Assembly: GCA_035772405.1 (NCBI GenBank)
Contig: JAYKKM010000047.1
Location: 6,819,501 to 6,883,500 of the forward strand
Direction of reading: 5' to 3'
Length of the DNA stretch: 64,000 nt
Source of the DNA: Chrysogorgia sp. JL179-B06
Lineage: Eukaryota; Cnidaria; Anthozoa; Scleralcyonacea; Chrysogorgiidae
Below, one piece after another: positions 33,919 through 52,395 of the stretch; within the stretch, counting starts at the first letter, position 1, and each line of letters opens with the position of its first letter. The position numbers and the translations under genes were made by a program. The notes beneath the pieces were generated by a model, which had not been told where the DNA came from, did no database searches, and was given only the letters and a program-made list of their open reading frames with translations.

Positions 33919-34078
33919 AGTAGTATAGAGAGTGGCGGTACGAGCTCAGTCAACGTCAACCGTAATATAAACACCAAAACATCGCCAAATTTGTGTCGAG
34001 CCACAACTTGGCGATGTTTTAGTGTTTATGTTTTACAGTTGACGTTGGTGAGCTCATACCGCCACTCTCTATACTACT
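33919..34078. repeat. Terminal 160-bp palindrome, left end of Element B
   Basis: The first about 80 bp (from AGTAGTATAGAGAGTGGCGG through GAGCTCA and ACATCGCCAA) are repeated in reverse complement up to CTCTATACTACT at 34,078, with a small central gap and a few mismatches. A single strand would fold into a long hairpin at the very end of the element. Confidence 0.93.
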
Positions 34079-34438
34079 ATGGTAATCATTAGTCATTCTA
34101 AACACCCCTCCCATGTTTTCTACTCAATTGATAAGAAATACTAAAATAATGGTTTTCGCTAAATTTAAAGCTAGAATGTGTCGTTTCATCATTTTCACGT
34201 CTTTAAAAAGTGGAGAATGTCGTTTCAACATTTTCACGTATTTAAAAAAAGGCATAGTGTGCCACTTCAACGTTTTCACACATTTAAAAAAGTAGAAGGT
34301 GTCATTTCAACATTTTTACATTTTTGTTCAACAAACCACCGACACGTTCTGCTGTTGTCTCACAAATTCACGCGCGAAAAAAAACCACTAGATTTTGGTT
34401 CTAGTGGTGATGTTTATCCAAATGGATAGCGAAATGGC
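33919..34438 (+). repeat. Left terminal inverted repeat of Element B (520 bp)
   Basis: It pairs with 51,876-52,395. Frames read across the two arms (34,178-34,429 against 51,885-52,136, and 34,113-34,295 against 52,019-52,201) lie at equal distance from the ends and translate identically, so there are no indels and probably no substitutions. The inner part has a 45-bp-period run of GTCGTTTCA/TTTTCACG..TTTAAAAA (about 34,178-34,320) and a palindrome CACTAGA-TTTTGGT-TCTAGTG near 34,386-34,407. Confidence 0.97.
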
Positions 34439-34995
34439 CACCCGTCATGTTTATTTGCTTAAATACTCTAAAATGATAGTGAATTGACTGTGGGTGTGGC
34501 GGCCTGCGGGATAGATTTCGTGCTCACAATCAGAGCGCTCTTCCCAGTCCACCACACCCACAAGCTTGACGAGGTTGAGGATGTCATAATAAAATACGGC
34601 GAAAGCTTGAGGACGTGCATAATAGCATTAAACCTAAGGTATCGATCCTAGAAAAAAGCAGACCGATATGACACCAGGTTATAAGCATCCATGATGTGAG
34701 AAAAAAAATAACTAGAGGCGAGAAGTAAGTCCTCAAGGTGTTACAATAAAATACGGCGAAAGCTTGAGGGCGTGCCCAAAAAGGTAGCTTGCATTGATCC
34801 TAGAAAAAGCAGACCGGTGTGACATCAGACTCTCAAGCAGGGCGCTCATAGTGAGATTTGCAAGGGATAATCCACAAATGGCTTAGGGGCCGGATTGTCT
34901 CTCCCTCAATGGCAGATCTCAAAGTAGTCGCCCGTTTTGCTGCCTTTTAGCGTTTGTTTTGCGAGATCGCGAGTAGCCACCTGTTAGTATGTAGA
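34439..34995. other. Non-coding segment inside Element B left end
   Basis: No gene seen. An about 100-bp unit (ATAAAATACGGCGAAAGCTTGAGG..GATCCTAGAAAAA described by its two ends) occurs twice, at about 34,585-34,680 and 34,740-34,830. A hairpin joins GACTGTGGGTGTGG and CCACCACACCCA at about 34,489-34,552. This is the only sizeable gene-free region of B. Confidence 0.5.
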
Positions 34996-35511
34996 TTAGT
35001 CCACTCGCTCACTATTTTCAGCGTCGTCTACCGTTTCTTTCTTGAAGTGGTGGTCGTACACATATTTTGACGTTGTGATTCCTCCCGACAACAAGCCCAA
35101 GAAAGGCACGTACGGCGTCACAATCGCGACAATGCTCTCGACGTCTTTCTTTAGTAACGGGTCTTTTTGTAGTTCGTCATTTAGTTCGTCAGGATTCTCT
35201 ATAGCGTTCAACCCATCCAGTAAGCTAGCGAATTTGCTGATTAGTAAGTCGGTGAGAAAAGCGTTTGCGATCTCCATTCTCTTTAACTCATGTTGGCGCC
35301 ATATCTTGTCGATAACCTTTGCGGACGCTTTTTTAATGTACGCTTCAGATTGACTTACCACACCGTCACCGGACAGTCTAATAAGTTCGGCTCTCCTAAC
35401 GTCAACGTTGTCTTCCACAGTCGAAGTGTCATCAGCGTCCTCGACTAATTCCTCAATCGTAGGGTTTTCTTCACTTTTGCGTTTTACCATCACGTTATTA
35501 CTTATACCCAT
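34996..35511 (-). CDS. Unknown 171-aa protein, last gene of Element B
   Basis: The start is MGISNNVMVKRKSEENPTIE. The N-terminal 45 residues are acidic and probably disordered (EELVEDADDTSTVEDNVDV), followed by helices (AYIKKASAKVIDKIWRQHEL) and a hydrophobic segment near 135-155 (AIVTPYVPFLGLLSGGI). It lies 4 bp downstream of the ATPase in the same direction and so belongs to the capsid/packaging operon. The equivalent genes of A and C lie outside the window. No family is recognised; a packaging partner or virion membrane protein is possible. Confidence 0.6.
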   Translation of the reverse strand: MGISNNVMVKRKSEENPTIEELVEDADDTSTVEDNVDVRRAELIRLSGDGVVSQSEAYIKKASAKVIDKIWRQHELKRMEIANAFLTDLLISKFASLLDGLNAIENPDELNDELQKDPLLKKDVESIVAIVTPYVPFLGLLSGGITTSKYVYDHHFKKETVDDAENSERVD

Positions 35512-35514: not shown

Positions 35515-36114
35515 TTATTGCGGAATAACAACTTCGTGACTGTATGGATAGCGTAGTGAGATTTCTAGTCTAGCGTACTTATTATTTTTTAATGCAGTCA
35601 CAATCGCCGACGATTTTTCTTTGCTAATGTTTCCAAGGTAGTCGTCAATGACAACCTTCATATCACTCCTACTCGGGCAGTAAAAACAAACGAGCTTACT
35701 AATATTTTCTCTGTACGGTTTTGCGATCGACGTCAGTTGTTGTGTGATGACAATAACGCTCAACATAAAATGTCGCGCACTAAAAGCTAAGTTGACCAAC
35801 TGACTAGTCCTATTCTTGACGTCTTGAGAACTCGCACAGTCGTCCAACACAATCAGAGTGTTAGTGCCTTTAAAAACATTTGTTACACACTTGAGAACAG
35901 CGTCGACACTGTCTTGCGCGCAGTCTATCGCTAACACGTCGGGGTCGCGCACATATTTCCAATCTTGATATGCTTTGTTCCACTCGAAAGTAGGGCAAAT
36001 CAACACAATGTAGTCAAATTTGCCACGATACTCAGATTCCAATGTTTCCAGCAAATAATGTGTCTTACCACAAGCTGTCATACCAACAATTAGCATATTA
36101 AACGGAGTCTCCAT
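35515..36114 (-). CDS. ATP: Genome-packaging ATPase, A32/FtsK-HerA type, 199 aa (Element B)
   Basis: Walker A, GMTACGKT, lies at residues 11-18 after NMLIVG. Walker B, TLIVLDDCA, is near 85-93, and the sensor-like VIVITQQLTSIAKPYREN is near 121-138. Length and layout match the small packaging ATPases of Mavericks, virophages and large DNA viruses, which pump DNA into the capsid. It is transcribed with the capsid gene (16 bp apart) and is the only ATPase copy in the window. Confidence 0.85.
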   Translation of the reverse strand: METPFNMLIVGMTACGKTHYLLETLESEYRGKFDYIVLICPTFEWNKAYQDWKYVRDPDVLAIDCAQDSVDAVLKCVTNVFKGTNTLIVLDDCASSQDVKNRTSQLVNLAFSARHFMLSVIVITQQLTSIAKPYRENISKLVCFYCPSRSDMKVVIDDYLGNISKEKSSAIVTALKNNKYARLEISLRYPYSHEVVIPQ

Positions 36115-36129: not shown

Positions 36130-37368
36130 TTAATACCCGATTGAATGCAACCCATTGTTCACGAAGTTGACCAACCCATCACTCATCACAAACACCCTGC
36201 ACATAACGTTTGCAGTCGTCACTTTCTTAGTGATCTCAAGAAGCACACCGGATTGTGTGTTTACAATGTTCTTGCCAGTGGCGATATTGTGATTATCTTG
36301 GACACTCCTCAAGTCGATGACTAACGCAAAGCCATCTTTATAGAATTTCTGTATGGTCATGAACTGAGCGTGTTCCTCACCCAACCCAAACAGTCGCTTC
36401 GCTTCTGCGTAGAACTTCGACTTTGGAATACCCTGTGAGTACACACTATTTGGCACGCCTTCAATTGTGACCTTAACGCTCTCGATATTTGGGTAAAGAA
36501 ACTCCTCGCTGTCTGTTCGCACCTTATTCGTGAATAGCAACACAATCGCCTTCATGCTTTTTCTAGGTAGATTAACGTTTTCGTTCACAATGGTCGTGCC
36601 CTTATCCCATTCAGTGGTTTTCATCAATGTAACGTGCTCATATGACAAACTACGACCACTTGCATAGCCTGACGCTATTTCGTCAGCGAGCTCCTGATTG
36701 TCGATCGTCTCGTACTCAAGCTCGAGGTTCTCCAGAGTGTATCCACCCACAGCGCTACCGGATTGCGCCACCATGATGTCTGTGGCCTTCGGAAGTGTGA
36801 TCACATACTGCAAGTTGTTGTTCATGCTAAAAGGGGCGTACAATCCATGGTCGTTCATGATCTTACCAAGCTTAATCCGCTGTTTTGTTCCAATCACACC
36901 AAACATCAACGCGTCACTAACTTTAATGGCGTTCCCACTCGTCGCACCACTGTCGTCCTTAGAAACTAGCTTTCTCAAGTTCTCACCACCAACACCATAG
37001 TCAATCATTTGGTCTCGCGCAGTGACACTTTCCCAAAGGTCGCGATAAACACCAGTGTAGTTTTCCCCATTGTTGTCGTACACAGTCTCCCCAGCTAGTC
37101 TCACAACAAGTTTCTCAACCAACAACCTGCTAACATTGTTCAAGAACCAGCTTTTGGCGTTTGCATTCTTAAAGTCGAACACTAGACCCAACGACCCAGG
37201 CACCAAACAGCTACTAACCTTGAGCTTTGGTATGTCAATGTAAAGTTCCTCACCAGGACTGACTTTATTGGGGTTCAACGTGATCACGTGCTGCGTTCTC
37301 ACCCCTTTTATGCCGCCCATAGTTGCTCGTCTAAAACCAGGGCTCAACTCTGCCGACGTGACGTTCAT
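36130..37368 (-). CDS. MCP: Major capsid protein, double jelly-roll type, 412 aa (Element B)
   Basis: The frame starts MNVTSAELSPGFRRAT. GVRTQHVITLNPNKVSPGEE and LYIDIPKLKVSSCLVPGSLG lead into the first barrel. RLVEKLVVRLAGETVYDN-type strands (here LLVEKLVVRLAGETVYDNNG) and the loop NLELEYETIDNQELADEI separate it from a second beta-rich half (VKVTIEGVPNSVYSQGIPKS, TQSGVLLEITKKV). The order and the neighbouring ATPase fit the Maverick capsid. The same start is seen at 30,670 in A and 63,534 in C. The fold assignment is by pattern and context. Confidence 0.8.
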   Translation of the reverse strand: MNVTSAELSPGFRRATMGGIKGVRTQHVITLNPNKVSPGEELYIDIPKLKVSSCLVPGSLGLVFDFKNANAKSWFLNNVSRLLVEKLVVRLAGETVYDNNGENYTGVYRDLWESVTARDQMIDYGVGGENLRKLVSKDDSGATSGNAIKVSDALMFGVIGTKQRIKLGKIMNDHGLYAPFSMNNNLQYVITLPKATDIMVAQSGSAVGGYTLENLELEYETIDNQELADEIASGYASGRSLSYEHVTLMKTTEWDKGTTIVNENVNLPRKSMKAIVLLFTNKVRTDSEEFLYPNIESVKVTIEGVPNSVYSQGIPKSKFYAEAKRLFGLGEEHAQFMTIQKFYKDGFALVIDLRSVQDNHNIATGKNIVNTQSGVLLEITKKVTTANVMCRVFVMSDGLVNFVNNGLHSIGY

Positions 37369-37391: not shown

Positions 37392-38822
37392 CTACCGTTT
37401 TAGCTTGTAATAATCATAAGCGAACCACGCAAGTACCACCGCGAGTACCCACAGATTTTGAGCCAACCAAGCGAGACCCTTCGCACCCAACGTCAACATA
37501 TTGTAAACTAAATTAGCCAATCCAACAGCCCATGGACCCATCTTCGTTATCGCGTTCTTAACAGCCTGTGCGAATGACCTCGTGGCCATAGCGCCTTTCA
37601 TAACAGCGGATCTCCCAGCGATAATAATAGTTGTTATAATCCCAGCCACTGAAATTGCCACAGCGCTCAACCCAACCATATTTTCTTTAGCCCATTCCTT
37701 AAATTTCTGAAACCTGTCAATGTCGACTTCTTGTTGCGCTCTAGCTTCTTCGAGCTCGCGCTGTCTTAGGGTTATGTCTATGGCTTTCTCAAGTCCTCTC
37801 ACTCTTTTAAGCAAACCAGCGTGCTCTTGCTCTTCGTCAGGCGTGAGACCAGTTTGGTCAGCTTTTCTATTAAGCTCTGCCAATCTCCCTCTCGTCTTAC
37901 CTAACGTTTCTTTAAAGTGGTCTGCCTGCACTTGCAGCGCGCCAGTGTCACCTATTCTTGACTCACGTAACACACCATCGCTTGGGTTGAGCACACCACC
38001 TAACACACGGTTTTCGTCTGATGATAGCTCAGATATGTCGTCGTGACCCACTCTTGTTACAATCACTGAGAGGTCATCTGGGATCACTTCTGTTGTGGCA
38101 GCTGTTGTTTCTGCGCTATTAGGGATTTGTTTAACTAGCTCTTTAAACTGCTTAATAGCCTTTTTACTATTGTTATCTTTACTGTAGATCAAATCGTCTT
38201 CTTTAGGTTTTAGAATTAGCCTGGGTCCTCCATACTTACCATGTGTGCCTATTGGTTTGAAAAGAATAGCCTCTGAGTCCGTAACCCACGACCTGTTGAC
38301 TATCTCCCTTGACGCGTCGTCCTGGCCAAGTGTTTTTCCACTCAATTTGTTTATTTTCGTATTTAGCAGCTTGATTCTTTTTACTTCGTTTTTTATTAAC
38401 TCTCTGTTGAGCGTTTTTAGTTCACCCAGTCTTCTCTTAATTTCTCCCGACTCTTCAAAAGCTATATTGAAGCTTGTGTCATCAACGTCACCATACGGTT
38501 CCTGTTCAACAAACTCCACTGCGGGGACTTCTGTGTTGGTCCCCCTTATTGTCACCGTCTTACCATCGTCACTGTCGATAAATGACGTCTCTTTTTCTTG
38601 GAACCTTCTCTCTTGCTCTTCCTGTAGTCTAGCCACTCTCCCATACAATTTTTCGTACTCGACGTGCACAATGTCTGGCATGTCACCGCTGGTGTACTTA
38701 TCGTCAAGTAAATTGTAAGCTTTAATGGCGCTCTTAAGCTCGACATCTAATTGATCGTCAGTGTAAGCTCTACCAAGGTTCTCCATCTCGATATCGTTAA
38801 AATCTTCCCCACCTTCAGCCAT
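37392..38822 (-). CDS. Minor virion protein with membrane-active C-terminus, 476 aa (Element B)
   Basis: The start MAEGGEDFNDIEMENLGRAY and long acidic, coiled-coil N-terminal part lead to the conserved VLNPSDGVLRESRIGDTGAL near residue 275. A coil (RELEEARAQQEVDIDRFQKF) and WAKENMVGLSAVA precede a membrane span (ISVAGIITTIIIAGRSAVM), then a Gly/Ala helix (MGPWAVGLANLVYNMLTLGA) and a final span (NLWVLAVVLAWFAYDYY) with a basic end. The gene lies between capsid and integrase with 23- and 6-bp gaps. The length exceeds the A copy by about 90 residues, mainly in the N-terminal part. Confidence 0.72.
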   Translation of the reverse strand: MAEGGEDFNDIEMENLGRAYTDDQLDVELKSAIKAYNLLDDKYTSGDMPDIVHVEYEKLYGRVARLQEEQERRFQEKETSFIDSDDGKTVTIRGTNTEVPAVEFVEQEPYGDVDDTSFNIAFEESGEIKRRLGELKTLNRELIKNEVKRIKLLNTKINKLSGKTLGQDDASREIVNRSWVTDSEAILFKPIGTHGKYGGPRLILKPKEDDLIYSKDNNSKKAIKQFKELVKQIPNSAETTAATTEVIPDDLSVIVTRVGHDDISELSSDENRVLGGVLNPSDGVLRESRIGDTGALQVQADHFKETLGKTRGRLAELNRKADQTGLTPDEEQEHAGLLKRVRGLEKAIDITLRQRELEEARAQQEVDIDRFQKFKEWAKENMVGLSAVAISVAGIITTIIIAGRSAVMKGAMATRSFAQAVKNAITKMGPWAVGLANLVYNMLTLGAKGLAWLAQNLWVLAVVLAWFAYDYYKLKR

Positions 38823-38828: not shown

Positions 38829-39944
38829 TTAGCTCACATTTTGAATATCGCTTTCTGGTATCCATGAGTTATGTTTGCTCTCATAACCCAACCATTTGAC
38901 CAGCGCCATCTTCTCCCCTCTAACTTTCTTTCTTTTTAACACCTTTTCAACTCTGTACACATCGTCACCACCACGTTTCTTATTGACCAGCGATAATTCC
39001 TGTTCGTAAAATTTACCAATAATCTGTTCACCGGTGTGATCCTCAATTTCGTACACATTCGGATCACCACGAATAACCTTTACCACTTTAAACAGCTCCT
39101 CAGTGAAGTTGGCTTCATAGCCCTTTGTGAACACACTTTTGTATTTACTAATTCTCACTGATTGACCAATCTTGAACTTTGGCAATGGATTGTCTGCAAA
39201 TTGGTGGCCAAATAAAGTGGTCCAAACTTCGCTTTCGTTTGACTTATTGACATCCTTCGGCTTCATCATAATACTGCGGTTCACACTGCTATTGTAATTG
39301 CTTACAAACTGATCCAAAGCGTCAATCCATTTGTACGTCCCACGGGTATAAAAGTACTTCCACATAATACTCTTGAGGCTTCTATTAAAACGCTCAACAA
39401 CAGCAGCCTTTTTGTCGGTCTTAGTGCTGAAATATTCAACACCATGTTTTTTCAACAAACTTTTCACCCCAACATTGTAGAATTCAAGTCCATCGTCAAA
39501 TTGCGCTAACTTAGGCGTGGCTCCAAACCGATCTTTAAAGTCGTTCAACAATTTTCCAACAGCCTTAGTCATGTTCTTAGTGTCTTTTCTGTAAACTGCA
39601 ATTCCAAAAGCGTATCTACTCAATATTTCAATGCCTGTCAATATCCAATAATAACCTCCATTCTGTTTTGAGTACTTACTCATGTCCACTAAGTCCATTT
39701 GGAGCTCTTCACCAAGAAATCCAACAAAAGTCGCACGGAACTTATGTCTTCTCACAATAGGTTTGTACCTAGTGTAGGTGTCCTGCGCTGTCAACCATTC
39801 TTTCACTGTTTTTCTAGTTACTTTCAATCCGTCTCCCAATGCACTTTGATACAATTTCTCTACACCACTGTACCCTGTCTTAGGATTGTAGTAAATGTCT
39901 CTCAACCCTTGTTCTGTTTCCACACCAAGCTCCATATAATTCAC
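38829..39944 (-). CDS. int: Integrase with chromodomain, 371 aa, intact (Element B)
   Basis: The start MNYMELGVETEQGLRDIYYN is followed by a helical N-terminal region (KLYQSALGDGLKVTRKTVKE), the DDE core with LQMDLVDMSKY, KLAQFDDGLEFYN and KKAAVVERFNRSLK, an SH3-like part (PKFKIGQSVRISKYKSVFTK) and a C-terminal chromodomain (DVYRVEKVLKRKKVRGEKMA, WLGYESKHNSWIPESDI). It is the only unbroken integrase of the window and the likely agent of B insertion. It overlaps the penton-like gene by four bases (ATGA), so the genes are read from one transcript. Confidence 0.95.
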   Translation of the reverse strand: MNYMELGVETEQGLRDIYYNPKTGYSGVEKLYQSALGDGLKVTRKTVKEWLTAQDTYTRYKPIVRRHKFRATFVGFLGEELQMDLVDMSKYSKQNGGYYWILTGIEILSRYAFGIAVYRKDTKNMTKAVGKLLNDFKDRFGATPKLAQFDDGLEFYNVGVKSLLKKHGVEYFSTKTDKKAAVVERFNRSLKSIMWKYFYTRGTYKWIDALDQFVSNYNSSVNRSIMMKPKDVNKSNESEVWTTLFGHQFADNPLPKFKIGQSVRISKYKSVFTKGYEANFTEELFKVVKVIRGDPNVYEIEDHTGEQIIGKFYEQELSLVNKKRGGDDVYRVEKVLKRKKVRGEKMALVKWLGYESKHNSWIPESDIQNVS

Positions 39945-40732
39945 ACAATATACAGTTCCAATAGCACCGCGCCAACGTCAGCGTCACCATTGTTTGGTTT
40001 GACACGAAACGTCATACTTGAGTAAATACCTTTTTTAATTTTCACCTTGGACTCAACGTGTGCGTAGCGCTGTATCCCCCCATCTAGAGACTTCTCGGTG
40101 AGCACTGGCAATGTTGTGATCACATCACTACGCTTCCCATCAGTGCCCACATTGCTCTCCGTATCAACAGCGTCGCACGAGACCTCCACATACTTCAGAC
40201 CTCTGTTCACGTCAATCTTGTTTGGACTGTCATGCCACCTACCATTTAGCGCAATTCCTGCATCCTTCGCGAAACCAAGCAAAAGCCCAATGCCACCTAG
40301 CCTAAGTTCTATTGTGCTGGTGGGTCTACTCCCAATACGTTGAACTTTGACCCTACTTTTACCTGTGTCCACCAGTTTCTCCACCACGAAGCTTGCATTA
40401 ACCCCCCTGAGCGTGAGTCGTAGAGCTCTAACCAACGCGTCGAAGTCGTAATGGCCACCATTCAAATGAGTTGATGCGAATCCTAAATGCGGTGTTCCTA
40501 ATCTAGCATGTAAGAATCGAATACTATCACCAAGCGCCACATTTTCGTAGTCCCAAAACACAGTGGCTGTCTTAACTATAATGTGTGGGTTATCGTGTGT
40601 GGCTACCACACTATGGCCAAAAGTTACGACTTTCTCCACACCTTCAGTAAGCACCGTCAACTTTTGAGGACTGTCGTGTACACGTCGCTTTTCAGTGTAA
40701 CCACCAGAGTCGAACCCGTAGTTTAGACTCAT
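39941..40732 (-). CDS. Penton-like paralog 1, 263 aa (Element B)
   Basis: The start MSLNYGFDSGGYTEKRRVHD recalls the MSL-x-YGF/Y starts of the fiber proteins. It is followed by a body related to the penton-like protein next door (HIIVKTATVFWDYENVALGD, PNKIDVNRGLKYVEVSCDAV, GAVLLELYIV). It looks like a duplicate of the 220-aa gene that has gained a fiber-type N-terminus. A and C have one penton-like gene only. It may form a second vertex type or join fiber to penton; the latter is speculation from the shared start. Confidence 0.6.
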   Translation of the reverse strand: MSLNYGFDSGGYTEKRRVHDSPQKLTVLTEGVEKVVTFGHSVVATHDNPHIIVKTATVFWDYENVALGDSIRFLHARLGTPHLGFASTHLNGGHYDFDALVRALRLTLRGVNASFVVEKLVDTGKSRVKVQRIGSRPTSTIELRLGGIGLLLGFAKDAGIALNGRWHDSPNKIDVNRGLKYVEVSCDAVDTESNVGTDGKRSDVITTLPVLTEKSLDGGIQRYAHVESKVKIKKGIYSSMTFRVKPNNGDADVGAVLLELYIV

Positions 40733-40751: not shown

Positions 40752-41414
40752 CTACTCAAGCGTTGCATACAAATCCAACAATATATCACCAACGTTGACA
40801 CCATTACCATCTTGGTCAGTCACGTTAAACACTAGCTGCGTAAAAGCGCCTTTGTTTATCGACACCTTCGACTCAATATTGAAGAATTGTTGAACGGAGC
40901 TCTTCAGTGGTTGGGTGGTGGTCAATGGTAACTCAACGATAACCTCGCTTTTGCTGCCATTAACAATATTCTCAGGTCTGTTCACAATGCTACAACCCAC
41001 TTGTACGTACTTCAGCCCTTTGTTAACGTTCACAACATTAGGGCTGACCAAACCACTACTACTCACCGTTGTGTTATCGTTGAACCCTAAGAGTTCTCCA
41101 AATTTAAACAGCTCTAATTGTTGGTCAGTTTTTATCTCACACTTCGAATCGTGTTTGTTGGCTACTAACCCAATAGCCCCTAATCCCTTCAACTCATCAG
41201 CAATCATTTTAAAAGTGTGGTACCCAGACCCAAAAACGTGTTTGTTGCTGTTGTAGCTTATTTCATCATTCACGCCAGTCTCCACGTTAACGTAGTCCCA
41301 AAAGATGGTCGCTTTTTTCACTAGTAAGTGAGGATCTGAGCCAAACGTCAAAAGTGCTTCTGGTAGATCCACAGTCTCCGTTGAGCCTCTAATCAATACT
41401 ACAACCCTGACCAT
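40752..41414 (-). CDS. Penton-like virion protein, 220 aa (Element B)
   Basis: The start MVRVVVLIRGSTETVDLPEA matches the C copy (MRVVVLISGSTKTVDLPE). Key parts are LVKKATIFWDYVNVETG, SPNVVNVNKGLKYVQVGCSI, SEVIVELPLTTTQPLKSSVQ and a final VNVGDILLDLYATLE. The beta-rich, 200-odd residue size fits a single jelly-roll minor capsid protein. It is divergently transcribed from the 456-aa gene across 23 bp that contain ACACACTATATTATA, and is followed 19 bp on by paralog 1. Confidence 0.62.
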   Translation of the reverse strand: MVRVVVLIRGSTETVDLPEALLTFGSDPHLLVKKATIFWDYVNVETGVNDEISYNSNKHVFGSGYHTFKMIADELKGLGAIGLVANKHDSKCEIKTDQQLELFKFGELLGFNDNTTVSSSGLVSPNVVNVNKGLKYVQVGCSIVNRPENIVNGSKSEVIVELPLTTTQPLKSSVQQFFNIESKVSINKGAFTQLVFNVTDQDGNGVNVGDILLDLYATLE

Positions 41415-43761: not shown

Positions 43762-43971
43762 ATGGGAGCATGTGTTTCGAGACCTCATGAAATATATAAA
43801 ATAAATAAAACGACTGACCACATGTTCAAAGCTGGTGGATCATTTGGCCGCGGTGACGTGACTCTCGAGCTCCACGCTGAGATTGGTATGAGGTCTAAAA
43901 AGACTTACGGCAAACCTATCACGCTACCTGCAGAGTCAGACACCGTAGGAGTGGTAGGAGACGTGACTTAA
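43762..43971 (+). CDS. Small protein with myristoylation-type start, 69 aa (Element B)
   Basis: The start MGACVSRPHEIYKINKTTDH has Gly2, Cys4 and Ser6, the pattern for N-myristoylation with palmitoylation. The body is polar with a beta-type stretch (GDVTLELHAEIGM). The ATG follows the fiber stop without a gap. No homolog in A or C and no known domain. Membrane association is an inference from the N-terminus. Confidence 0.5.
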   Translation: MGACVSRPHEIYKINKTTDHMFKAGGSFGRGDVTLELHAEIGMRSKKTYGKPITLPAESDTVGVVGDVT

Positions 43972-43979: not shown

Positions 43980-44120
43980 ATGGGTTGGCTTAGAAAACTG
44001 GCTCGTAACATTAGAAACTTTTTCAGACGACGTAGAAAACTGAGGACTAATAAAACACATCTGATGCATTGGTACACAACAAACCAAATCTATAAAAAAC
44101 CCAACACCCACATCGAGTAG
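43980..44120 (+). CDS. Small arginine-rich protein, 46 aa (Element B)
   Basis: The start MGWLRKLARNIRNFFRRRRK forms a strongly basic amphipathic helix, followed by a polar tail ending PNTHIE. It begins 8 bp after the preceding stop, in the same transcription unit. It could be a membrane-active peptide or a DNA condenser. The evidence is its exact fit in the gap and its biased but non-repetitive composition. Confidence 0.45.
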   Translation: MGWLRKLARNIRNFFRRRRKLRTNKTHLMHWYTTNQIYKKPNTHIE

Positions 44121-44148
44121 TTTTTTTGTGGGAGACTATAATATAGCG

Positions 44149-44916
44149 ATGACTTCCGCAATACTTCGATTATTCGATTTCGATGGTCACCAAATCACAA
44201 CGGTTAATCACAACGGTGAAATATGGTTCAAAGCAAAAGAGGTCGCAAGCGCTCTAGGTTACGCTCGACCAAAAGATGCAGTCAACGACCACGTCGAACC
44301 TGATTGCAAAATGAAGATGGAACAGGTCTCGTTTATCAACGAACTTGGGGTCTACTCGCTAGTGTTCTCGAGTAACCTAGAGTGTGCGAAACACTTTGGA
44401 AGGTGGGTGCACTCAGAGGTCTTGCCAAGCGTTAGAAAAAGTTTAGCTGACGTTAGTCTCAAACACAATCAGTTTAAAATAATCACTGAGTTCGACCTTC
44501 ATACGAAAGTTGTTGGTTTTCTTAGGAAACATTATCCAGAAGCTATTTTGATAGCTGCTTGTGGTGAAAATCAAGACACTTCTGCGAAGAGAATAAATTC
44601 GTGGAAAAAAGGTTACCAGCGTGGAACACCTGACTTGGTTATTGCCAATGCAAACCGACAGCACAGCGGACTTGTGATTGAGTTCAAGAATCCAGGTGGC
44701 ACAGGTAAGACATCCAAAGAGCAGGAGTCTCTGCTACTCAGATATAAGTCCGCTGGTTATCTAACGTTGTTGTGCGACTCGTACGACGATGCTATTACTA
44801 CAGTAATAAAATATTTCTTTGACGTTGGGTTTCAGTGTTCCCGGTGTTTTCGTAAATTTAAAAATAAATCAGCGTTGAGCAACCACGAGAGACGCTATTG
44901 TAAAGAGACTTTTTAG
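44149..44916 (+). CDS. BRO-N / VRR-NUC / C2H2 fusion protein, 255 aa (Element B)
   Basis: The ATG at 44,149 is chosen because GACTATAATATAGCG stands directly before it. Residues 10-105 are a BRO-N domain (EIWFKAKEVASALGYARPKD, LGVYSLVFSSNLE, VLPSVRK). Residues about 115-215 are a VRR-NUC nuclease (DTSAKRINSWKKGYQRGTPD, LVIEFKNPGGTGK with the catalytic E-x-K). Residues about 228-250 are a C2H2 finger (CSRCFRKFKNKSALSNHERR). The enzyme probably recognises and cuts branched DNA during replication or packaging. It is complete here, whereas the A copy is broken. Confidence 0.8.
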   Translation: MTSAILRLFDFDGHQITTVNHNGEIWFKAKEVASALGYARPKDAVNDHVEPDCKMKMEQVSFINELGVYSLVFSSNLECAKHFGRWVHSEVLPSVRKSLADVSLKHNQFKIITEFDLHTKVVGFLRKHYPEAILIAACGENQDTSAKRINSWKKGYQRGTPDLVIANANRQHSGLVIEFKNPGGTGKTSKEQESLLLRYKSAGYLTLLCDSYDDAITTVIKYFFDVGFQCSRCFRKFKNKSALSNHERRYCKETF

Positions 44917-45158: not shown

Positions 45159-45725
45159 TTATGTGGAAGGATGATGACGTCTGCACACTGCGCGATATTG
45201 CTCAGCACCACCAACGAATGATGGTCCTGGGTTGTATCTCCAATTGAATGGCGCTTCAACAGTTGTTCCGTAAGTGTCGCGACAAACGGCGCAATACGCT
45301 TTTAGAAATGTGATGTCGTCTGCCATTGGGAACAACGTGTCAAGTTCGCCAAGTCTTTTTAAGTGCTCTGTTGTTATGAGACCACAAATAATGACGTGAA
45401 CGCCGGCTCTAATGTATTCGTGAATAACTGGGAGTAGATCAGAGTACCAATGGCCTTCATCAATTCCGATGACGTCATAGTCAGCTATCTCGGAAGAACT
45501 TGGAAGGTTGGTGATTAACTTCGCAGGTAAACTGTCTGATCCGACAACAATGGTCTGACGATGTGTGGAGAACGCGTGGTCAGTTCGTCTGGTGTCACCT
45601 GTGTTGTTCATGTAAAGGACTTTGAGCCCTGACTTACTTAACGTGAGTAACCTGCGAAGAGTCTCAGTTGTTTTTCCTGCAAACATGGGACCAATCACGA
45701 TTTCTAGTTTACCGATTTTCTTCAT
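45159..45725 (-). CDS. TK: Thymidine kinase, type II, 188 aa (Element B)
   Basis: The P-loop GPMFAGKTTETLRRL lies at residues 12-26. The Walker B-like DVIGIDEGHWYSDL lies near 86-99, with H and W where most family members have Q and F. The lid/zinc part has CAVCRDTYG, then PSFVGGAEQY and CRRHH, giving three cysteines and a histidine. The enzyme makes dTMP for replication in non-dividing cells. It is absent from A and C and is not part of the usual Maverick gene set, so it was probably acquired. The length is typical. Confidence 0.9.
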   Translation of the reverse strand: MKKIGKLEIVIGPMFAGKTTETLRRLLTLSKSGLKVLYMNNTGDTRRTDHAFSTHRQTIVVGSDSLPAKLITNLPSSSEIADYDVIGIDEGHWYSDLLPVIHEYIRAGVHVIICGLITTEHLKRLGELDTLFPMADDITFLKAYCAVCRDTYGTTVEAPFNWRYNPGPSFVGGAEQYRAVCRRHHPST

Positions 45726-46479
45726 GGTTACTATACCTCCAGAGAAACGCTCTCCCCTCTTGCGGCAACTGTTGCTCGTTGTTAAATATCCGCTGAAGCT
45801 CTAAGTTTTTAAGATGAGACCTCGAGCTCTCGTGTCTTGAGCGATGCATTGGGTTGTTGGTAACCACACCACATGGGTAACAATTGTACGACGCGCCGCC
45901 GTGCGCAAAATCCAGGTGAGTGTGTGAGAGTATGTGACTCATAATATCGCCCGCACCCACTATTTCATTACATCCCACCCTACAAACGTTGACGTCACAG
46001 TTTGCGGCGAGCTCTAGCCACGCTTTGGCTTTGGTTGAGCATGGTTTCCATAGAAGGGTCGCCAAGAACACTTCGAGGTAGTTACCGAGTAGTGTAGCGG
46101 CGGACTCGCAAGGGTTGCTCAAGTAGTGGCCACTTGCTAACGTAAGACGTTTGAATGGTGGGTAACACCACACAGGGATCATCTTGGCTAGTTCGTTAAC
46201 CATCCTGTTGGCTCTAACTTCATCAAGCCCGACCCAAGCCTCATGAGCAAACTTTGTATAGAGAATCTGGGCACCAAATTGTCTTGACACCTCTTCGTTT
46301 TTACGATCGGGGTCGCACAACTTGAAGACTTGCGAGTACCCTTTTAAGACGTTGGGTCCAGAGGCGCCTTGCGGGGTAGACGCATCGACAAAGGACATTC
46401 TCCGCATCGCGTCGATCTCCTCTTCTTGACGGGCTTGGTCTTGAGTCATCTCTTCTGCGATGTCTTGGACTTGAGTCAT
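45709..46479 (-). CDS. Two-zinc-finger protein overlapping TK, 256 aa (Element B)
   Basis: The start MTQVQDIAEEMTQDQARQEE is acidic and coiled. The middle is unrecognised (FGAQILYTKFAHEAWVGLDE, NRMVNELAKMIPVWCYPPFK). The end holds two finger-like sets, CRVGC..IMSHILSHTH and CYPCG..HRSRHESSRSH. The gene overlaps the kinase by 17 bases in another frame, so the two are co-transcribed. GGGTATAACATA precedes the ATG. There is no counterpart in A or C; a DNA-binding regulator is a fair guess. Confidence 0.6.
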   Translation of the reverse strand: MTQVQDIAEEMTQDQARQEEEIDAMRRMSFVDASTPQGASGPNVLKGYSQVFKLCDPDRKNEEVSRQFGAQILYTKFAHEAWVGLDEVRANRMVNELAKMIPVWCYPPFKRLTLASGHYLSNPCESAATLLGNYLEVFLATLLWKPCSTKAKAWLELAANCDVNVCRVGCNEIVGAGDIMSHILSHTHLDFAHGGASYNCYPCGVVTNNPMHRSRHESSRSHLKNLELQRIFNNEQQLPQEGRAFLWRYSNHEENR

Positions 46480-46611: not shown

Positions 46612-46956
46612 ATGGTTGAGGACTCACAGACGGCTGTTGACGCTAAGATCACGGCTGATGTGAAAAGTGTTAAGGTGAAGGACCCAAAACGCGTCGCTGC
46701 TGGTAAAAAGTTGGCTGAGATATCGAAAGCTGCGAAAGAAAAGAAAATGCGTGAAATGATAGTCAACGAAGAACAGGGTGGTGAGTGGGGTTATGGATAT
46801 GTTGTCGGAACACTTGGCGTAATCATCGCTGGTGCTTCGTTATGGTACACAATTAGCAGTGAAAAAGAGACACGACTAGAGCCTGTGAGTACTACACCAG
46901 CTGTGTCAGAAAGTTGTAGGACTCGTCGTCCAACACTTGACACATTTGATTCTTGA
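46612..46956 (+). CDS. Small basic membrane protein, 114 aa (Element B)
   Basis: VKVKDPKRVAAGKKLAEISK and AAKEKK form a basic segment at residues 20-45. A single span follows (WGYGYVVGTLGVIIAGASLW), and a Thr/Ser-rich tail ends TLDTFDS. It is the homolog of 21,517-21,843 in A and 56,086-56,361 in C. The phased CTGTGAG array directly upstream is shared by all three. The gene opens the transcription unit that runs to the polymerase. Confidence 0.75.
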   Translation: MVEDSQTAVDAKITADVKSVKVKDPKRVAAGKKLAEISKAAKEKKMREMIVNEEQGGEWGYGYVVGTLGVIIAGASLWYTISSEKETRLEPVSTTPAVSESCRTRRPTLDTFDS

Positions 46957-46979: not shown

Positions 46980-47216
46980 ATGGCTGCGATCGATCGAAAA
47001 GAACTTATGAACGAATTGTACGATGCGCTACTTGTTACGACTGGTGCTGTGGCAGTGAGTATGATTTCTAAAAAGGCTTTGGGAGAACCATTGGGAACAC
47101 CAGAGACAGTTAAAGGCATAGTGAAACTTGCTGCAGCTGTTGGTGCAGGAACGCTGTTAGTAAAATGGATGCAATCGAAAAAGTGGATACCGACAGATCC
47201 ATTCAAATCAACGTAA
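46980..47216 (+). CDS. Small membrane protein, 78 aa (Element B)
   Basis: The ATG at 46,980 (MAAIDRKELMNELYDALLVT) is preferred over an upstream TTG because the C copy starts MASIDRK at the same place and TGTATAT lies just before. Two hydrophobic stretches (LLVTTGAVAVSMI and LAAAVGAGTLLVKWM) and the tail KKWIPTDPFK follow. The partner gene 46,612-46,956 ends 23 bp before. Function unknown; conserved as a pair in all three elements. Confidence 0.7.
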   Translation: MAAIDRKELMNELYDALLVTTGAVAVSMISKKALGEPLGTPETVKGIVKLAAAVGAGTLLVKWMQSKKWIPTDPFKST

Positions 47217-47220: not shown

Positions 47221-47640
47221 ATGGCGAGTGTTGTGGCTGGAGGGATATTTAATGCAGTGGCTTTTGCAGGCGCTGGCTTTATGTTTTCAAAGTTTAATCA
47301 CACAGGCTATGAAGCTGAGATGAAAAGACATAACCATGCGTTGGAGCAGTTAGCCAGCGCGAAAGAAGCGTGGTATGAAAATGAGATTGCTAAAAAAGAT
47401 AAGATTCAGCGTTTACGGCAAATGCTCTCAGATGCTAACGCTGACATCAATGACACAAACCACGCGTTGGAAGAACTTAGAAGCGTAATGACCATACAGT
47501 ACAGCGGACGAGTGTTCACTGACCTCCCGAGGGTTGCGGATTACTACCAACCGAGTGCGGAAATGAAGGAATACCAATTGTTGTTTGTTAGCGCGCTAGG
47601 TTTGGGTAGTGGAATAGCGGTGTGGGTGCTAACTCGGTGA
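47221..47640 (+). CDS. Coiled-coil membrane protein, 139 aa (Element B)
   Basis: The start MASVVAGGIFNAVAFAGAGF is a Gly/Ala hydrophobic segment. A coiled coil over about 35-95 contains LRQMLSDANADINDTNHALE. DYYQPSAEMKEY and a C-terminal span (LLFVSALGLGSGIAVWVL) follow. It is the homolog of the A (20,014-20,421) and C (55,384-55,800) proteins. It lies 4 bp after the 78-aa gene, so it is co-transcribed. Confidence 0.78.
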   Translation: MASVVAGGIFNAVAFAGAGFMFSKFNHTGYEAEMKRHNHALEQLASAKEAWYENEIAKKDKIQRLRQMLSDANADINDTNHALEELRSVMTIQYSGRVFTDLPRVADYYQPSAEMKEYQLLFVSALGLGSGIAVWVLTR

Positions 47641-47664: not shown

Positions 47665-48231
47665 GTGATGGACAAACTTATGAGGCAGATGAGTTATGGC
47701 TTAACAATTGACGAAATCGCGAATGAGACGCAAATTGAGTGTGGAGGCACCTTCAGGCTTTACTACTGCTCGGATTGTGACGTTGTGAAAAATGTGACTG
47801 ACTGTGGTGGGTACGCATGTCCAAAGTGTGGCGACACCGAATGGGGTTACGTTCAGAGTTACAGCGACATGAGACTCACACGACTAAAAAGCGTTCACAA
47901 ACGGTCTTGGTGGATGGGGAGAAGACTACGGAACGTTGTGAAGTACGAGCACCTTGAGTTGATAAAAGAGGACTTCCTGAAAGTTGTCAATGTGCTGCAC
48001 TCATGCAATTTGATCAAGGGTAGAAATGTCAGCAGATATGGGTACTACATTATTAGGTTGTGTCATAGAAGACGAGTCAAGACACTCAAGAAGGTGTCAG
48101 ACCTCAAAGACGGGAAGGTGAAAGACTTGTTCGACGATAATTTGTTTGGGGTGGTGTACCCAAAGCTAGGATGGTGCGAAAGTGGCGACAATTATTACGA
48201 CGAGTGGTTTAGGAAAAAAAGTGTAGTGTAA
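47665..48231 (+). CDS. Zinc-ribbon protein, 188 aa (Element B)
   Basis: CSDCD near residue 35 and CPKCGDTEWG near 51-60 form a C-x2-C..C-x2-C ribbon. After it come a basic patch (RSWWMGRRLRNVV) and a helical domain (LIKEDFLKVVNVLHSCNLIK, YGYYIIRLCHRRR). The C relative is at 54,450-55,004. Zinc ribbon plus helical domain recalls late transcription factors of large DNA viruses (VLTF3 type), which would suit a virus with its own start motif; this is a hypothesis only. AGTAGTATAAGAGTG precedes the ATG. Confidence 0.6.
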   Translation: MMDKLMRQMSYGLTIDEIANETQIECGGTFRLYYCSDCDVVKNVTDCGGYACPKCGDTEWGYVQSYSDMRLTRLKSVHKRSWWMGRRLRNVVKYEHLELIKEDFLKVVNVLHSCNLIKGRNVSRYGYYIIRLCHRRRVKTLKKVSDLKDGKVKDLFDDNLFGVVYPKLGWCESGDNYYDEWFRKKSVV

Positions 48232-48241: not shown

Positions 48242-51200
48242 ATGAGTCGGACTGTGAGAAACCCGCTGAAAAAAAGACGGGCGCATAAGACGAGTGCAGC
48301 CGTTGTCAATTCACTAACAGATGAAGCGACCAACGTTCACGGCTTTTTTGGAGACCAAGAAACACAACCTGTAGTCGAAGACCTCACACCGTCAACACAT
48401 CTGTTGGATCGAGCACTGAGAGGGTTCACAAGGTCCTATGGAGTCGAAGTGATTGACGACAGAGACATCAATCAGGTAAATGGTAGTAGAAGTGCTGTCA
48501 CTAACCTTTTGAGACGTGAACTAGGTGAGACCAATGGAATGAAAGTGGTGGAGACAGTCAAGGTCACTTTTGAGAAAGTTTTAGAACTCAATAAGACCAC
48601 ATACAAAACTGCCTACTTTAACAGCGAAACGTTCGTCGTCATTAACGAGCATGACATCGAGGGTGTTGCCAATCGTGGATCGGAGCAGATTTTGACGCGG
48701 ATAGCTGGGTGGTTGTCTGAGGGGTCTGGATGGACTATCGACAAAATAGATGCACACTACGTTAATGTCGCTATTTACAGACCTTTGAATGGGAGTAGCT
48801 ACATCACGCTGCCAAAGGAGCTGCGTAACAGTATGAAGGGTTTGATAAACGTAAATAACGGTGATGACAACGAGTGCTTTAGATGGTGTCACCTCGCACA
48901 TAAATTCCCTGCTGGAAAAAACTCTGATAGAACGTCGAAGTACGCTAGGCACGTCGGTGAGCTGAATTATGACGGAATTGACTTCCCAGCCACACTCAAA
49001 GATTACAACAAGATCGAAAAGGCTAACGAAATTAGCATTAATGTTTTTGGGTATGAAAATAAGCAGCCGTTCCCTGTGTACGTTTCTAAGGAGGTGTACC
49101 CTGACCATATGGACTTGTTGTTGATAACTAATGACATAGGTAACAAGCACTACGTCTACATTCGCGATTTTAATAAATTCATGCACCGGCAAACAAAGCA
49201 TGAGGCGAGAAAGCACTTTTGTAGGTATTGTTTGCAGTGCTTCACCCGAGAGGACGTGCTTGAAAGCCACATTGAAGTATGTTTGGTCATCAATGGGAAG
49301 CAAGCTATTAAAATGCCGCAAAAAGGTGCGAAAGTGAAATATGAGAATTTTAGTAGACAGCTAAACGTACCATTTGTGGTGTACGCAGACTTCGAGGCTA
49401 TCACACAGAAGGTGCACACAGCAAGACTGTCAAGCGAGTGTAGCTACACAAATGCTTACCAGAGGCACGTTGACTGTGGTTATGGGTACAAATTAGTTTG
49501 TTGCTACGACAACGAGTACAGTAAGCCAGTGAAAGTGTACCGTGGTGAAAACGCAGTTAATAAGTTCATTGGGGAGATGTTAGAAATTGTTGAATATTGT
49601 AAAGAAACATCTGAGAGTCACTTTAACAAAGAAATGGTGCTGACTGACGACGATAAGAAGAATTTCGACGAGGCTAAGAGTTGCCATATTTGTAGCGTTG
49701 AATACACTGGCGCCGACGTTAGAGTGAGAGACCACTGTCACGTGTCAGGTAAGTACAGAGGGTCCGCGCATCGTGACTGTAATGTGAACTTTAAGTTGAC
49801 TGATAAAATTCCTGTGATCTTTCATAACTTACGTGGCTACGATAGTCATTTCATCATGCAGGAGATTGGTAAGTTTGGTCAAGACATAAACGTGATACCG
49901 AACAACATGGAGAAGTACATGGCGTTCATGCTTGGAAAAAACTTGGTATTTTTGGACAGCTTTCAGTTCATGAGTAGTGGTCTAGACAACTTGGTGAAGA
50001 ACCTACCAAGGGACGCTTTCAAATACACGTCAGAAGTGTTCCACGACGAGGGGTTAGCACTTATGACAAGAAAGGGGGTCTATCCCTATGATTATATGGA
50101 CTCCTTTGAAAAATTCGATGAATGCGAGCTACCCTCCAAAAAAGATTTCTACAGCGTTCTGAACGATGAGCACATCACGGAAGAAATGCACGAGCGCGCC
50201 ATCGATGTGTGGGACTACTTCGACGTTAAAAATATGGGTGGGTATCACGACCTGTATTTGAAAAGCGATGTGCTCTTGCTTGCCGACGTTTTTGAGAACT
50301 TTAGAAAGACATGCCATCGTGAGTATAAATTAGACCCGTGTCACTATTTCACATCGCCTGGATTGGCTTGGGATGCCATGTTAAAGATGACTGGAGTAGA
50401 ACTCGAGTTATTGTCCGACATCGACATGTTCCAGTTCGTAGAATTAGGTATGCGTGGTGGTGTGAGCTACATATGCAACAGACATGGCGTGGCGAACAAT
50501 AAATATATGAAGGGGTACGATAAAGCGCAAGAGTCGAAGTATTTGATGTATCTTGACGCCAACAATTTATATGGGTGGGCAATGAGTCGAAGTCTACCTA
50601 CGGGTGGCTTCAAGTGGTTGACTGAGAGAGAGATAGAAAAGGTTAATCTATGTGACTATCACAACAATAGTAAAAAAGGTTTACTGCTTGAAGTCGACTT
50701 GGAGTATCCAGACCATTTGCATGACCTACATAACGATTACCCGCTGGCTCCTGAGAAGATGGAGATAACTGTTGACATGTTGTCGGAGTACTGCACGAAA
50801 ATCAAAAATAAGTTTAATGTGAGTGTTGGTGGTGTAAAGAAGCTGGTGACTAATTTGATGGACAAAAAAAAGTATGTGTGTCACTATGGAAATCTGCAGT
50901 TGTACATGGATCTTGGGTTAAAAATCAAAAAGACTCATAGGGTCCTACAGTTTGACCAGTCCAAGTGGTTGGGTAAGTACATCGACTTTAACACAGTCAA
51001 AAGAACCGCAGCTAAGAACGCTTTCGAGAAGGACTTCTTCAAGTTGATGAACAACAGTGTGTTTGGAAAAACAATGGAAAATTTGAGGAAGCGCGTTGAC
51101 GTGAGACTAGTGACAACTGCTGGGAAATTAGAAAAGCTCGTCTCGAAGCCAACGTTTGTGTCTTGCAAAATATTTAGCGAGAATTTAGTCGCTGTCCACA

Positions 51201-51853
51201 AAGTTAAAGAAACGCTGACACTAAATCGACCTGCGTATGTGGGTATGTGCATACTAGACTTGAGCAAAACTCTGATGTATGATTTTCACTATAACTACAT
51301 TATGAAAAAGTACTCTAGCGACACTTGCAGATTACACTTCACCGACACTGACAGTCTGTTGTACTCAATCAAAACTAATGACGTTTATTCCGACTTTATG
51401 ATGGAGCGCGAAAAGTTTGACAATAGCGACTATCCCGATGACAGCCCATTCGCTTTTAAAGAAAACAAGAAAGTTATTGGGAAGATGAAAGACGAGTGCG
51501 CTGGAACACCAATTATCGAGTTCGTTGGGTTGCGCAGTAAAATGTACAGTTATTTGAAAGAGGGTGGAGGTGGTGGGAAAACTGCTAAAGGTATTAGAAA
51601 AAATATAATTAAAAAGGTAATCAGACACGAAGATTACAAAAGTGTGTTACTTGAGCAGAAACAATTGCGACACACAATGAAGACCATTAGAAGTGTCAAA
51701 CATCAGATTGGTAGTTACGAAATTAATAAAGTATCGCTATCCTGCTTTGATGATAAACGACACCTTTTAGAAAATGGTATTGACTCCTACGCGTATGGTC
51801 ACAAAAACATTGTAGTGAGAAACAACACTGAAAACAGTGAGCAAACGGACTAA
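48242..51853 (+). CDS. polB: Protein-primed DNA polymerase B, 1203 aa, intact (Element B)
   Basis: The N-terminal 300 residues carry LRGFTRSYGVEVI, SEGSGWTIDKID and INVNNGDDNECFRW. A C2H2 finger follows at about 325-345 (CRYCLQCFTREDVLESH). Exo I is VVYADFEA (~379), an endonuclease-VII-like zinc module has CHICSVEYTG and RDHCHVSGKYRGSAHRDC (~480-515), Exo II is FHNLRGYDSHFI (~526), and Exo III YHDLYLKSDVLLLAD (~665). Motif A is YLDANNLYGWAM (~768), motif B KLMNNSVFGKTMEN (~933), motif C FTDTDSLLY (~1032). All catalytic acids are present. It lacks the W-x2-W N-terminal motif of A and C. It ends 22 bp from the terminal repeat. Confidence 0.96.
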   Translation: MSRTVRNPLKKRRAHKTSAAVVNSLTDEATNVHGFFGDQETQPVVEDLTPSTHLLDRALRGFTRSYGVEVIDDRDINQVNGSRSAVTNLLRRELGETNGMKVVETVKVTFEKVLELNKTTYKTAYFNSETFVVINEHDIEGVANRGSEQILTRIAGWLSEGSGWTIDKIDAHYVNVAIYRPLNGSSYITLPKELRNSMKGLINVNNGDDNECFRWCHLAHKFPAGKNSDRTSKYARHVGELNYDGIDFPATLKDYNKIEKANEISINVFGYENKQPFPVYVSKEVYPDHMDLLLITNDIGNKHYVYIRDFNKFMHRQTKHEARKHFCRYCLQCFTREDVLESHIEVCLVINGKQAIKMPQKGAKVKYENFSRQLNVPFVVYADFEAITQKVHTARLSSECSYTNAYQRHVDCGYGYKLVCCYDNEYSKPVKVYRGENAVNKFIGEMLEIVEYCKETSESHFNKEMVLTDDDKKNFDEAKSCHICSVEYTGADVRVRDHCHVSGKYRGSAHRDCNVNFKLTDKIPVIFHNLRGYDSHFIMQEIGKFGQDINVIPNNMEKYMAFMLGKNLVFLDSFQFMSSGLDNLVKNLPRDAFKYTSEVFHDEGLALMTRKGVYPYDYMDSFEKFDECELPSKKDFYSVLNDEHITEEMHERAIDVWDYFDVKNMGGYHDLYLKSDVLLLADVFENFRKTCHREYKLDPCHYFTSPGLAWDAMLKMTGVELELLSDIDMFQFVELGMRGGVSYICNRHGVANNKYMKGYDKAQESKYLMYLDANNLYGWAMSRSLPTGGFKWLTEREIEKVNLCDYHNNSKKGLLLEVDLEYPDHLHDLHNDYPLAPEKMEITVDMLSEYCTKIKNKFNVSVGGVKKLVTNLMDKKKYVCHYGNLQLYMDLGLKIKKTHRVLQFDQSKWLGKYIDFNTVKRTAAKNAFEKDFFKLMNNSVFGKTMENLRKRVDVRLVTTAGKLEKLVSKPTFVSCKIFSENLVAVHKVKETLTLNRPAYVGMCILDLSKTLMYDFHYNYIMKKYSSDTCRLHFTDTDSLLYSIKTNDVYSDFMMEREKFDNSDYPDDSPFAFKENKKVIGKMKDECAGTPIIEFVGLRSKMYSYLKEGGGGGKTAKGIRKNIIKKVIRHEDYKSVLLEQKQLRHTMKTIRSVKHQIGSYEINKVSLSCFDDKRHLLENGIDSYAYGHKNIVVRNNTENSEQTD

Positions 51854-51875
51854 TTTGTTGACCAATCAAAAGAGC

Positions 51876-52395
51876 GCCATTTCGCTATCCATTTGGATAA
51901 ACATCACCACTAGAACCAAAATCTAGTGGTTTTTTTTCGCGCGTGAATTTGTGAGACAACAGCAGAACGTGTCGGTGGTTTGTTGAACAAAAATGTAAAA
52001 ATGTTGAAATGACACCTTCTACTTTTTTAAATGTGTGAAAACGTTGAAGTGGCACACTATGCCTTTTTTTAAATACGTGAAAATGTTGAAACGACATTCT
52101 CCACTTTTTAAAGACGTGAAAATGATGAAACGACACATTCTAGCTTTAAATTTAGCGAAAACCATTATTTTAGTATTTCTTATCAATTGAGTAGAAAACA
52201 TGGGAGGGGTGTTTAGAATGACTAATGATTACCATAGTAGTATAGAGAGTGGCGGTATGAGCTCACCAACGTCAACTGTAAAACATAAACACTAAAACAT
52301 CGCCAAGTTGTGGCTCGACACAAATTTGGCGATGTTTTGGTGTTTATATTACGGTTGACGTTGACTGAGCTCGTACCGCCACTCTCTATACTACT
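51876..52395 (-). repeat. Right terminal inverted repeat of Element B (520 bp)
   Basis: The complement of 33,919-34,438. The inner limit is set where GAAATGGCC on the left meets GAAATGGCG on the right. The outer 160 bp (52,236-52,395) form the same palindrome as on the left. Confidence 0.97.
52236..52395. repeat. Terminal 160-bp palindrome, right end of Element B
   Basis: AGTAGTATAGAGAGTGGCGG begins the palindrome at 52,236 in direct orientation and its complement ends it at 52,395. The same orientation of the inner asymmetry (GAGCTCACC against GAGCTCAGT) is kept in both ends. Confidence 0.92.

Follow-up and report, generated by a model that had tools for sequence, protein, structure and literature searches.

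A young, virus-like Maverick nested in two older ones, and the apparent recent amplification of its family

We analysed a 64,000-nucleotide stretch of DNA (the window) that carries, at positions 33919-52395, a virus-like mobile element of the Maverick/Polinton type, which we call M3. The polymerase gene of an older Maverick, M2, is split by M3, and M2 itself has landed in the capsid-like gene of a third element, M1. M3 has inverted repeats at its ends, 19 open frames and many relatives in the host genome.

Three nested elements and the ends of M3

The ends and remains of the three elements are distributed as follows, with the strand where one is assigned.

13770..30780: M1, the outermost and oldest Maverick, recognised by homology and tips; M2 interrupts its capsid-like gene at 30780
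30775..30780: M2 target duplication AACCCT, left copy (second copy directly past the M2 right tip)
30781..33918, minus: M2 left end (tip 30781) and C-terminal part of its broken polymerase gene (31631-33918), from homology and tip
33913..33918: target duplication GTTGTC, left copy, matching the right copy
33919..34438, plus: M3 left terminal inverted repeat, 520 bp, tip (AGT)2, 0/520 differences to the other arm
33919..34078: near-palindrome of 160 bp, the tip followed by an inverted tip copy at 34049-34078; DNA fold -66.7 kcal/mol
51876..52395, minus: M3 right terminal inverted repeat, 520 bp, 0/520 differences to the other arm
52236..52395: near-palindrome of 160 bp at the right end, from tip copies and arm identity
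52396..52401: target duplication GTTGTC, right copy, matching the left copy
52396..64000, minus: M2 continued, with the N-terminal polymerase part (52396-53685) and other genes, from homology

Direct alignment of 33919-34438 with the complement of 51876-52395 gave no difference over 520 nt in each arm, which bears out the matching arms of equal length described in the first-pass annotation; by arithmetic, the 95% upper bound on their divergence is near 0.6%. The match ends at inner position 521 (automated repeat detection gives 521 nt, the extra base being a chance pairing of the next base), and beyond the outer ends 47 of 200 positions are equal, which is background. The tips read AGTAGTATAGAG, so that the arms begin AGTAGT, i.e. 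(AGT)2, and the two M3 arms hold every one of the four hits that a 22-nt tip query has in the window (mean 0.00 in 100 shuffles). The GTTGTC duplication reported earlier adjoins both ends. That translations are identical across the arms is also true, but it adds no separate evidence, because it follows from the identity of the arm DNA.

The two halves of the M2 polymerase gene frame M3 exactly: residues 423-879 of the M3 polymerase match 33918-32557, residues 4-424 match 53685-52396, and the two matches meet at the insertion point. Besides this insertion, the M2 gene has a frame change near 32557-32560 and one stop in the matched part. The right tip of M2 lies 2404 bp past the end of the window, and in the DNA there (L049) it is followed by AACCCT, then by the resumed capsid-like gene of M1, with an in-frame TGA at L049:2573-2575 (by eye), and then by the right tip of M1. 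TTATTA flanks M1 on both sides, but as it lies inside a TTA repeat this duplication is not informative. Arm mismatches number 15 in 178 columns for M1 (4 gap openings), 9 in 336 columns for M2 (2 gap openings) and 0 in 520 for M3, a divergence in the order M1>M2>M3 that agrees with the nesting. The elements thus inserted in the order M1, M2, M3, and the three-deep nest serves as an internal relative clock. The recent insertion of M3 proposed at first reading is well supported by this comparison, and by the location of M3 in an M2 polymerase gene that carries other damage as well.

Other features were observed in and around the nest. An insert at 26255-28887 splits the integrase gene of M1 and holds a DDE_Tnp_4 transposase open reading frame (ORF) at 26794-27528, presumably PIF/Harbinger-type, and, on the minus strand, a Myb/SANT-like ORF at 28153-28650. 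A further long ORF-like stretch lies near the right end of M1 (L049:5400-6300, by eye), and a similar 61-bp unit is tandemly repeated about 14 times at 4871-5732 and about 9 times at 6780-7320.

The genes of M3

In M3 we count 17 main frames, each 78 amino acids (aa) or longer and not overlapping, together with two short ORFs (69 and 46 aa); none has an internal stop. The main frames were picked from 38 ORFs of at least 80 aa, many of them antisense, and their shorter ATG starts. The 19 unbroken genes of the first-pass annotation are therefore upheld as open frames; the two short ones were our own choice, and the gaps also contain uncounted ORFs 36-50 aa long. The integrase and BRO frames as listed begin at GTG, and their first ATGs lie a few codons in, as placed from the translations.

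34996..35511, minus: 171-aa ORF, open, with no Pfam match
35515..36114, minus: genome-packaging ATPase, A32/FtsK-like (PF04665 Pox_A32, 3.3e-16, above cut-off; terminase-like PHROG, 2.5e-9)
36130..37368, minus: candidate major capsid protein, 412 aa, adjoining the ATPase; 446 relatives
37392..38822, minus: candidate minor virion protein, 476 aa, hydrophobic C-terminus (by eye); homologues in M1 and M2
38829..39944, minus: retroviral-type integrase with chromodomain, first ATG 39935 (PF00665, 1.8e-6; PF00385, 1.5e-10)
39941..40732, minus: candidate penton, 263 aa, a diverged paralogue of the 220-aa gene; 30-32% to an M1/M2 ORF
40752..41414, minus: candidate penton, 220 aa, present or replaced in the family; 96-98% in 6/16 family stretches
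41438..42808, plus: 456-aa ORF, C-terminal hydrophobic segment (by eye), in the swapped block; 96-99% in 2/16 family elements
42811..43761, plus: 316-aa ORF, weak tail-fibre-like N-terminal match (phrog_2710, 9e-5); homologues in M1 and M2
43762..43971, plus: 69-aa ORF starting MGACVS, open
43980..44120, plus: 46-aa ORF, open
44128..44916, plus: BRO-N, VRR-nuclease and C2H2 protein, first ATG 44149 (PF02498, 1.6e-21; PF08774, 7.4e-6)
45159..45725, minus: thymidine kinase (TK), 188 aa (PF00265, 1.3e-28; solved thymidine kinases to 3.5e-20)
45709..46479, minus: Cys/His-rich ORF, 256 aa, overlapping TK by 17 bp; variants in family members
46612..46956, plus: 114-aa ORF; homologues in M1 and M2
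46980..47216, plus: 78-aa ORF, from comparison with M1/M2 DNA in the window
47221..47640, plus: 139-aa ORF; 70% in M2
47668..48231, plus: 187-aa ORF, zinc-ribbon-like by eye; 33% in M2
48242..51853, plus: putative family-B protein-primed DNA polymerase, 1203 aa, from sequence motifs; homologues in M1 and M2

Profile matches exceed the curated cut-off for the A32 ATPase, the chromodomain, the BRO-N and VRR-nuclease domains (the C2H2 match is weak and under its cut-off) and TK. The integrase core scores 28.5 bits, under the Pfam cut-off of 32.6, and IS481/IS3-type transposase models match the same protein, also under their cut-offs. The retroviral-type integrase, the FtsK/A32-type ATPase, the (AGT)2 tips on inverted repeats and the 6-bp duplication identify M3 as a Maverick/Polinton. 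The first-pass annotation, which had also named it so, thus stands, and is joined by strings in the 1203-aa protein that we take to be polymerase motifs.

The 1203-aa frame probably encodes the polymerase, and the 412-aa frame is a candidate for the capsid gene; among 120 of the capsid candidate's relatives that were listed, all those with an organism name come from the octocoral Paramuricea clavata. The same ORF of M1 and M2 matches both the 263-aa gene and the neighbouring 220-aa gene. The TK keeps what we take to be the P-loop and the DE motif. In a tree it clusters with four database proteins at a support of 0.999. Support falls to 0.81, 0.826, 0.712 and 0.0 at the nodes that follow outwards and is 0.964 for a wider grouping of 24, so that the tree does not separate a host from a virus origin. 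For the 256-aa neighbour, no relative at E<=0.001 was found among 321 candidates from 5.8 billion proteins. Neither gene has a match in the parts of M1 and M2 that lie in the window, and both therefore look like later cargo. Among viral contigs, no relatives were found with the capsid-like protein, its alignment, TK, the polymerase or a 20-nt tip.

A BRO-N-like and VRR-nuclease gene was observed in all three Mavericks, at 18765-19450 (M1), 44128-44916 (M3) and 56422-57288 (M2). It is a single ORF with a weak C2H2 match in M2 and M3, and is spread over two frames in M1.

The M3 family in the host genome

The host genome was searched as an assembly of 781 Mb in 522 contigs. The exact 37-nt tip of M3 occurs 232 times (114 forward, 118 reverse), against 0 in a backward-read control. 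Of the 100 occurrences that were listed, 98 pair up in inverted orientation, giving 49 pairs spaced 17,361-19,394 bp, and 2 are single. In the arm search the best 40 of 3020 first-look candidates, that is the most M3-like arms, were scored: all were full, at 97-100% identity (M3's two included), and their first 24 nt were identical in 40/40. Thirty-four of them pair up into 17 elements, one of which is M3; the partners of the remaining 6 are not among the arms listed. The 6-bp duplications match in all 17. Arm substitutions are absent in 13 of the 17 (M3 included), a share of young elements that may be overstated since only the most M3-like arms were scored, and number 3, 4, 11 and 14 in the other four. 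Arms of different elements differ by 2.1% on average (range 0-4.25%), and the nearest other arm to M3's differs at 11 sites. Maverick DNA lies on both 60-bp flanks in 4 of the 17 (M3, C229, C181 and C220; compared with the Mavericks of the window and L049), so that nesting is not rare. One family copy, at G000:C47:6933403-6951935 (L033, L034, L088), lies about 61 kb downstream of M3 and has 14 arm substitutions and a matching CTGTCA duplication.

Genes of the family were sought in lists ranked by protein score, which favour intact copies and whose first-look numbers are not copy counts. The best 150 of 1943 TK candidates were all full length and without stops, and the best 101 of 4049 capsid-like candidates were all without stops, all but one covering residues 1-412 (M3 included in both). 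The state of the genes played no part in the choice of the 16 paired elements besides M3, which were selected for similar arms. Fifteen of them carry a complete, uninterrupted TK, and the shortest, C436, has none. Damage was seen in the BRO gene of C181 (in three pieces) and in the 256-aa gene, which is in two pieces on C181, split on C237 and partial on C229. It is plausible that M3 can still move, as 13 of 17 sampled elements lack arm substitutions and TK is open in 15 of 16 others, in a sample biased in this direction.

These counts also bear on whether M3 might be old, with arms that gene conversion has held identical or that the assembly has collapsed. Repeat arms can convert, and copies of the family are near-identical. 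However, M3 keeps 19 open frames and lies inside M2, whose arms diverged at 9 sites; the 3-14 arm substitutions in 4 of 17 family elements indicate that conversion does not erase all differences, and target duplications match in 17/17. We therefore hold an old M3 to be very improbable.

The terminal near-palindromes are a further property of the family. As DNA, the left 160 bp of M3 fold at -66.7 kcal/mol, against a mean of -14.9 for shuffles (z -19). The halves are 85% identical while the two M3 ends are 100% identical, and the near-palindrome is thus older than the M3 insertion. An inverted self-match is present in each of the 40 arms scored. Nothing comparable was found at the left end of M1. 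Within the left end of M2 there is a distinct, short palindrome accompanied by inverted copies of the tip. In this M2 region (31091-31627), a second, diverged tip facing right (31370) and another facing left (31319) surround a palindrome at 31307-31382, as if two Maverick ends had met head to head.

One might speculate that the 160-bp palindromes are working hairpin telomeres, as in parvoviruses (adeno-associated virus, AAV), instead of or beside protein priming. The near-complete hairpin from the first base and the self-match in every arm scored would fit, as would the strong folding of 12/12 distinct 160-bp ends (-94 to -120 kcal/mol, RNA parameters). Yet eight hairpin pairs vary among these 12 ends. 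In seven of them the only variation is a lost pair; at the eighth (68/92) one end carries a two-sided change (T-A against C-G), but 9 of the 12 ends have an unpaired C-A. This comparison used the structure of M3 itself, which favours M3, and the changes available for judgement are few. In hairpin transfer about half of the ends become flipped, but 98 of the 100 tips listed are unflipped and the other 2 unpaired. Working telomeres of this kind thus seem highly unlikely.

Selection was assessed on 21 copies of each gene, M3 and 20 others, taken for TK by hand down the list of 149 others and for the capsid-like gene from the 100 others listed. For TK, mean silent divergence (pS) is 0.179 and mean replacement divergence (pN) 0.014 (pN/pS 0.080); for the capsid-like gene the values are 0.220 and 0.015 (pN/pS 0.068). 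Both genes are under purifying selection in the copies sampled, and most of the shared differences must have arisen while the proteins mattered. Changes found in a single copy show weaker constraint, as would follow if some of them postdate insertion: TK has 30 silent and 15 replacement ones, and the capsid-like gene 61 silent and 38 replacement ones over 268 silent and 968 replacement sites.

It could be argued that the family is now a pure transposon, in which the capsid genes are passengers and spread occurs within the germ line from a few active masters. The many copies within one genome, with 232 exact tips, would be in keeping with this. Against it, constraint on the capsid-like gene is as strong as that on TK in the copies sampled, and silent divergence between copies is 18-22% while 13 of 17 elements lack arm substitutions, a combination that suggests descent from many parental lineages and not from a single master; the samples behind each of these figures were ranked. 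We consider a pure transposon less likely than not on these grounds, and the copies of the family stem from several diverged parents.

The copies also differ by the exchange of a block of genes. DNA similarity between M3 and 14 of the 16 elements breaks at about 40.2-41.4 kb and returns at about 42.7 kb (in the damaged C436 copy only piecewise, from 43.3 kb), whereas in C34 and C47b it is unbroken. The break contains the 456-aa gene, and in 10 of the 16 elements also the 220-aa gene. Identity of the 456-aa protein is 96-99% in 2 of the 16 and 39-42% in the other 14; that of the 220-aa protein is 96-98% in 6. In the other 10, the nearest ORF resembles the 263-aa gene (53-56%) more closely than the 220-aa protein (32-34%). 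In 15 elements TK is 92-96% identical to that of M3. The block has sharp borders; we read it as replaced by recombination, and in the 10 elements one of the two paralogues (220-aa/263-aa) may also have been lost. The swapped genes may encode a penton or attachment protein.

A virus-like family and its known relatives

All this is very probably explained by M3 being an integrated, virus-like Maverick/Polinton whose family amplified recently and repeatedly in a eukaryotic host, probably an animal. In such a life cycle the polymerase would copy the linear genome with a protein primer, the integrase would insert the element by its two (AGT)2 ends at a cut staggered by 6 bp, and the ATPase and capsid-type genes would package the genome. 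The extra TK could supply a dTTP (deoxythymidine triphosphate) precursor for replication in cells that make little of it.

Several points weigh against this explanation. Identical arms could also come from the gene conversion or assembly artefact considered above; a pair enters the arm sample only if both of its arms are M3-like, which favours undiverged arms; and the copies used for selection come from score-ranked lists, in which intact copies are over-represented. Sequence searches with the 412-aa capsid candidate matched no known capsid, the 1203-aa protein has no polymerase match in Pfam, NCBIfam, PHROGs or PDB, and Pfam scans of 17 ORFs did not reveal a maturation protease, although a diverged one could escape them. 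Recent, repeated amplification nonetheless remains, to our minds, the best explanation of the ends, genes and copies described here.

A more far-reaching reading is that this is a still-replicating animal DNA virus lineage that is endogenising en masse. Its integrations would be young, with selection acting between them; TK would have been captured for non-dividing cells, and vertex or attachment blocks would be exchanged between lineages meeting in one cell or genome. We put this forward tentatively, at somewhat less than an even chance. To our knowledge, whether animal Mavericks still make particles is an open question, and the many young copies, constrained capsid-like genes and exchanged blocks make it testable by observing living animals.

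M3 resembles vertebrate Mavericks (PMC8097293) in a size of about 17 kb, terminal repeats, (AGT)2 ends (published Maverick end motifs being (AGT)2 or (AG)3), 6-bp duplications, integrase, ATPase and purifying selection on core genes. It differs in number: intact vertebrate Mavericks amount to 134 in 17 species, at most 38 per genome (Barreat and Katzourakis 2021, PMC8097293), whereas 232 exact-tip ends, about 116 elements' worth, lie in this one genome, a figure that counts ends and not intact genes. TK, the BRO-VRR gene and the block swap do not appear in that paper's passages on vertebrate Mavericks. Among cnidarian Polintons/adintoviruses, whose major capsid proteins fall outside the main Maverick cluster according to passages of Bellas et al. 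(2023, PMC10120064), the nearest named relatives of the 412-aa protein are those from Paramuricea clavata; unlike in that group, a protease was not recognised in M3. In Polintons, passages of PMC4028283, on Polinton capsids, give the ATPase as identified in 83% and the adenovirus/Ulp1-type cysteine protease in 74%. The domain layout of the polymerase is described in a passage of PMC11071308.

High copy number is shared with Trichomonas vaginalis and other protists, which carry tens to thousands of Maverick-Polintons per genome (passages of PMC10120064), although the named relatives of M3 point to an animal instead. The clam Mercenaria mercenaria has 7091 annotated Maverick stretches over 31 Mb (in part of PMC8905726), a count of stretches rather than of elements whose ends match. 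High Maverick copy number is thus already known, on these passages, from protists and at least one clam. A TK-like gene is shared with segmented bidnavirus-type parvoviruses, in a group defined by an adintovirus-type polymerase (PMC11071296); these differ in a single-jelly-roll capsid and a segmented genome, and the passage does not mention an integrase. No TK in a Maverick is described in the TK passages of PMC11071296 and PMC4981718. Relative to the passages cited, M3 adds to the known Mavericks a TK, the exchange of a gene block and terminal palindromes.

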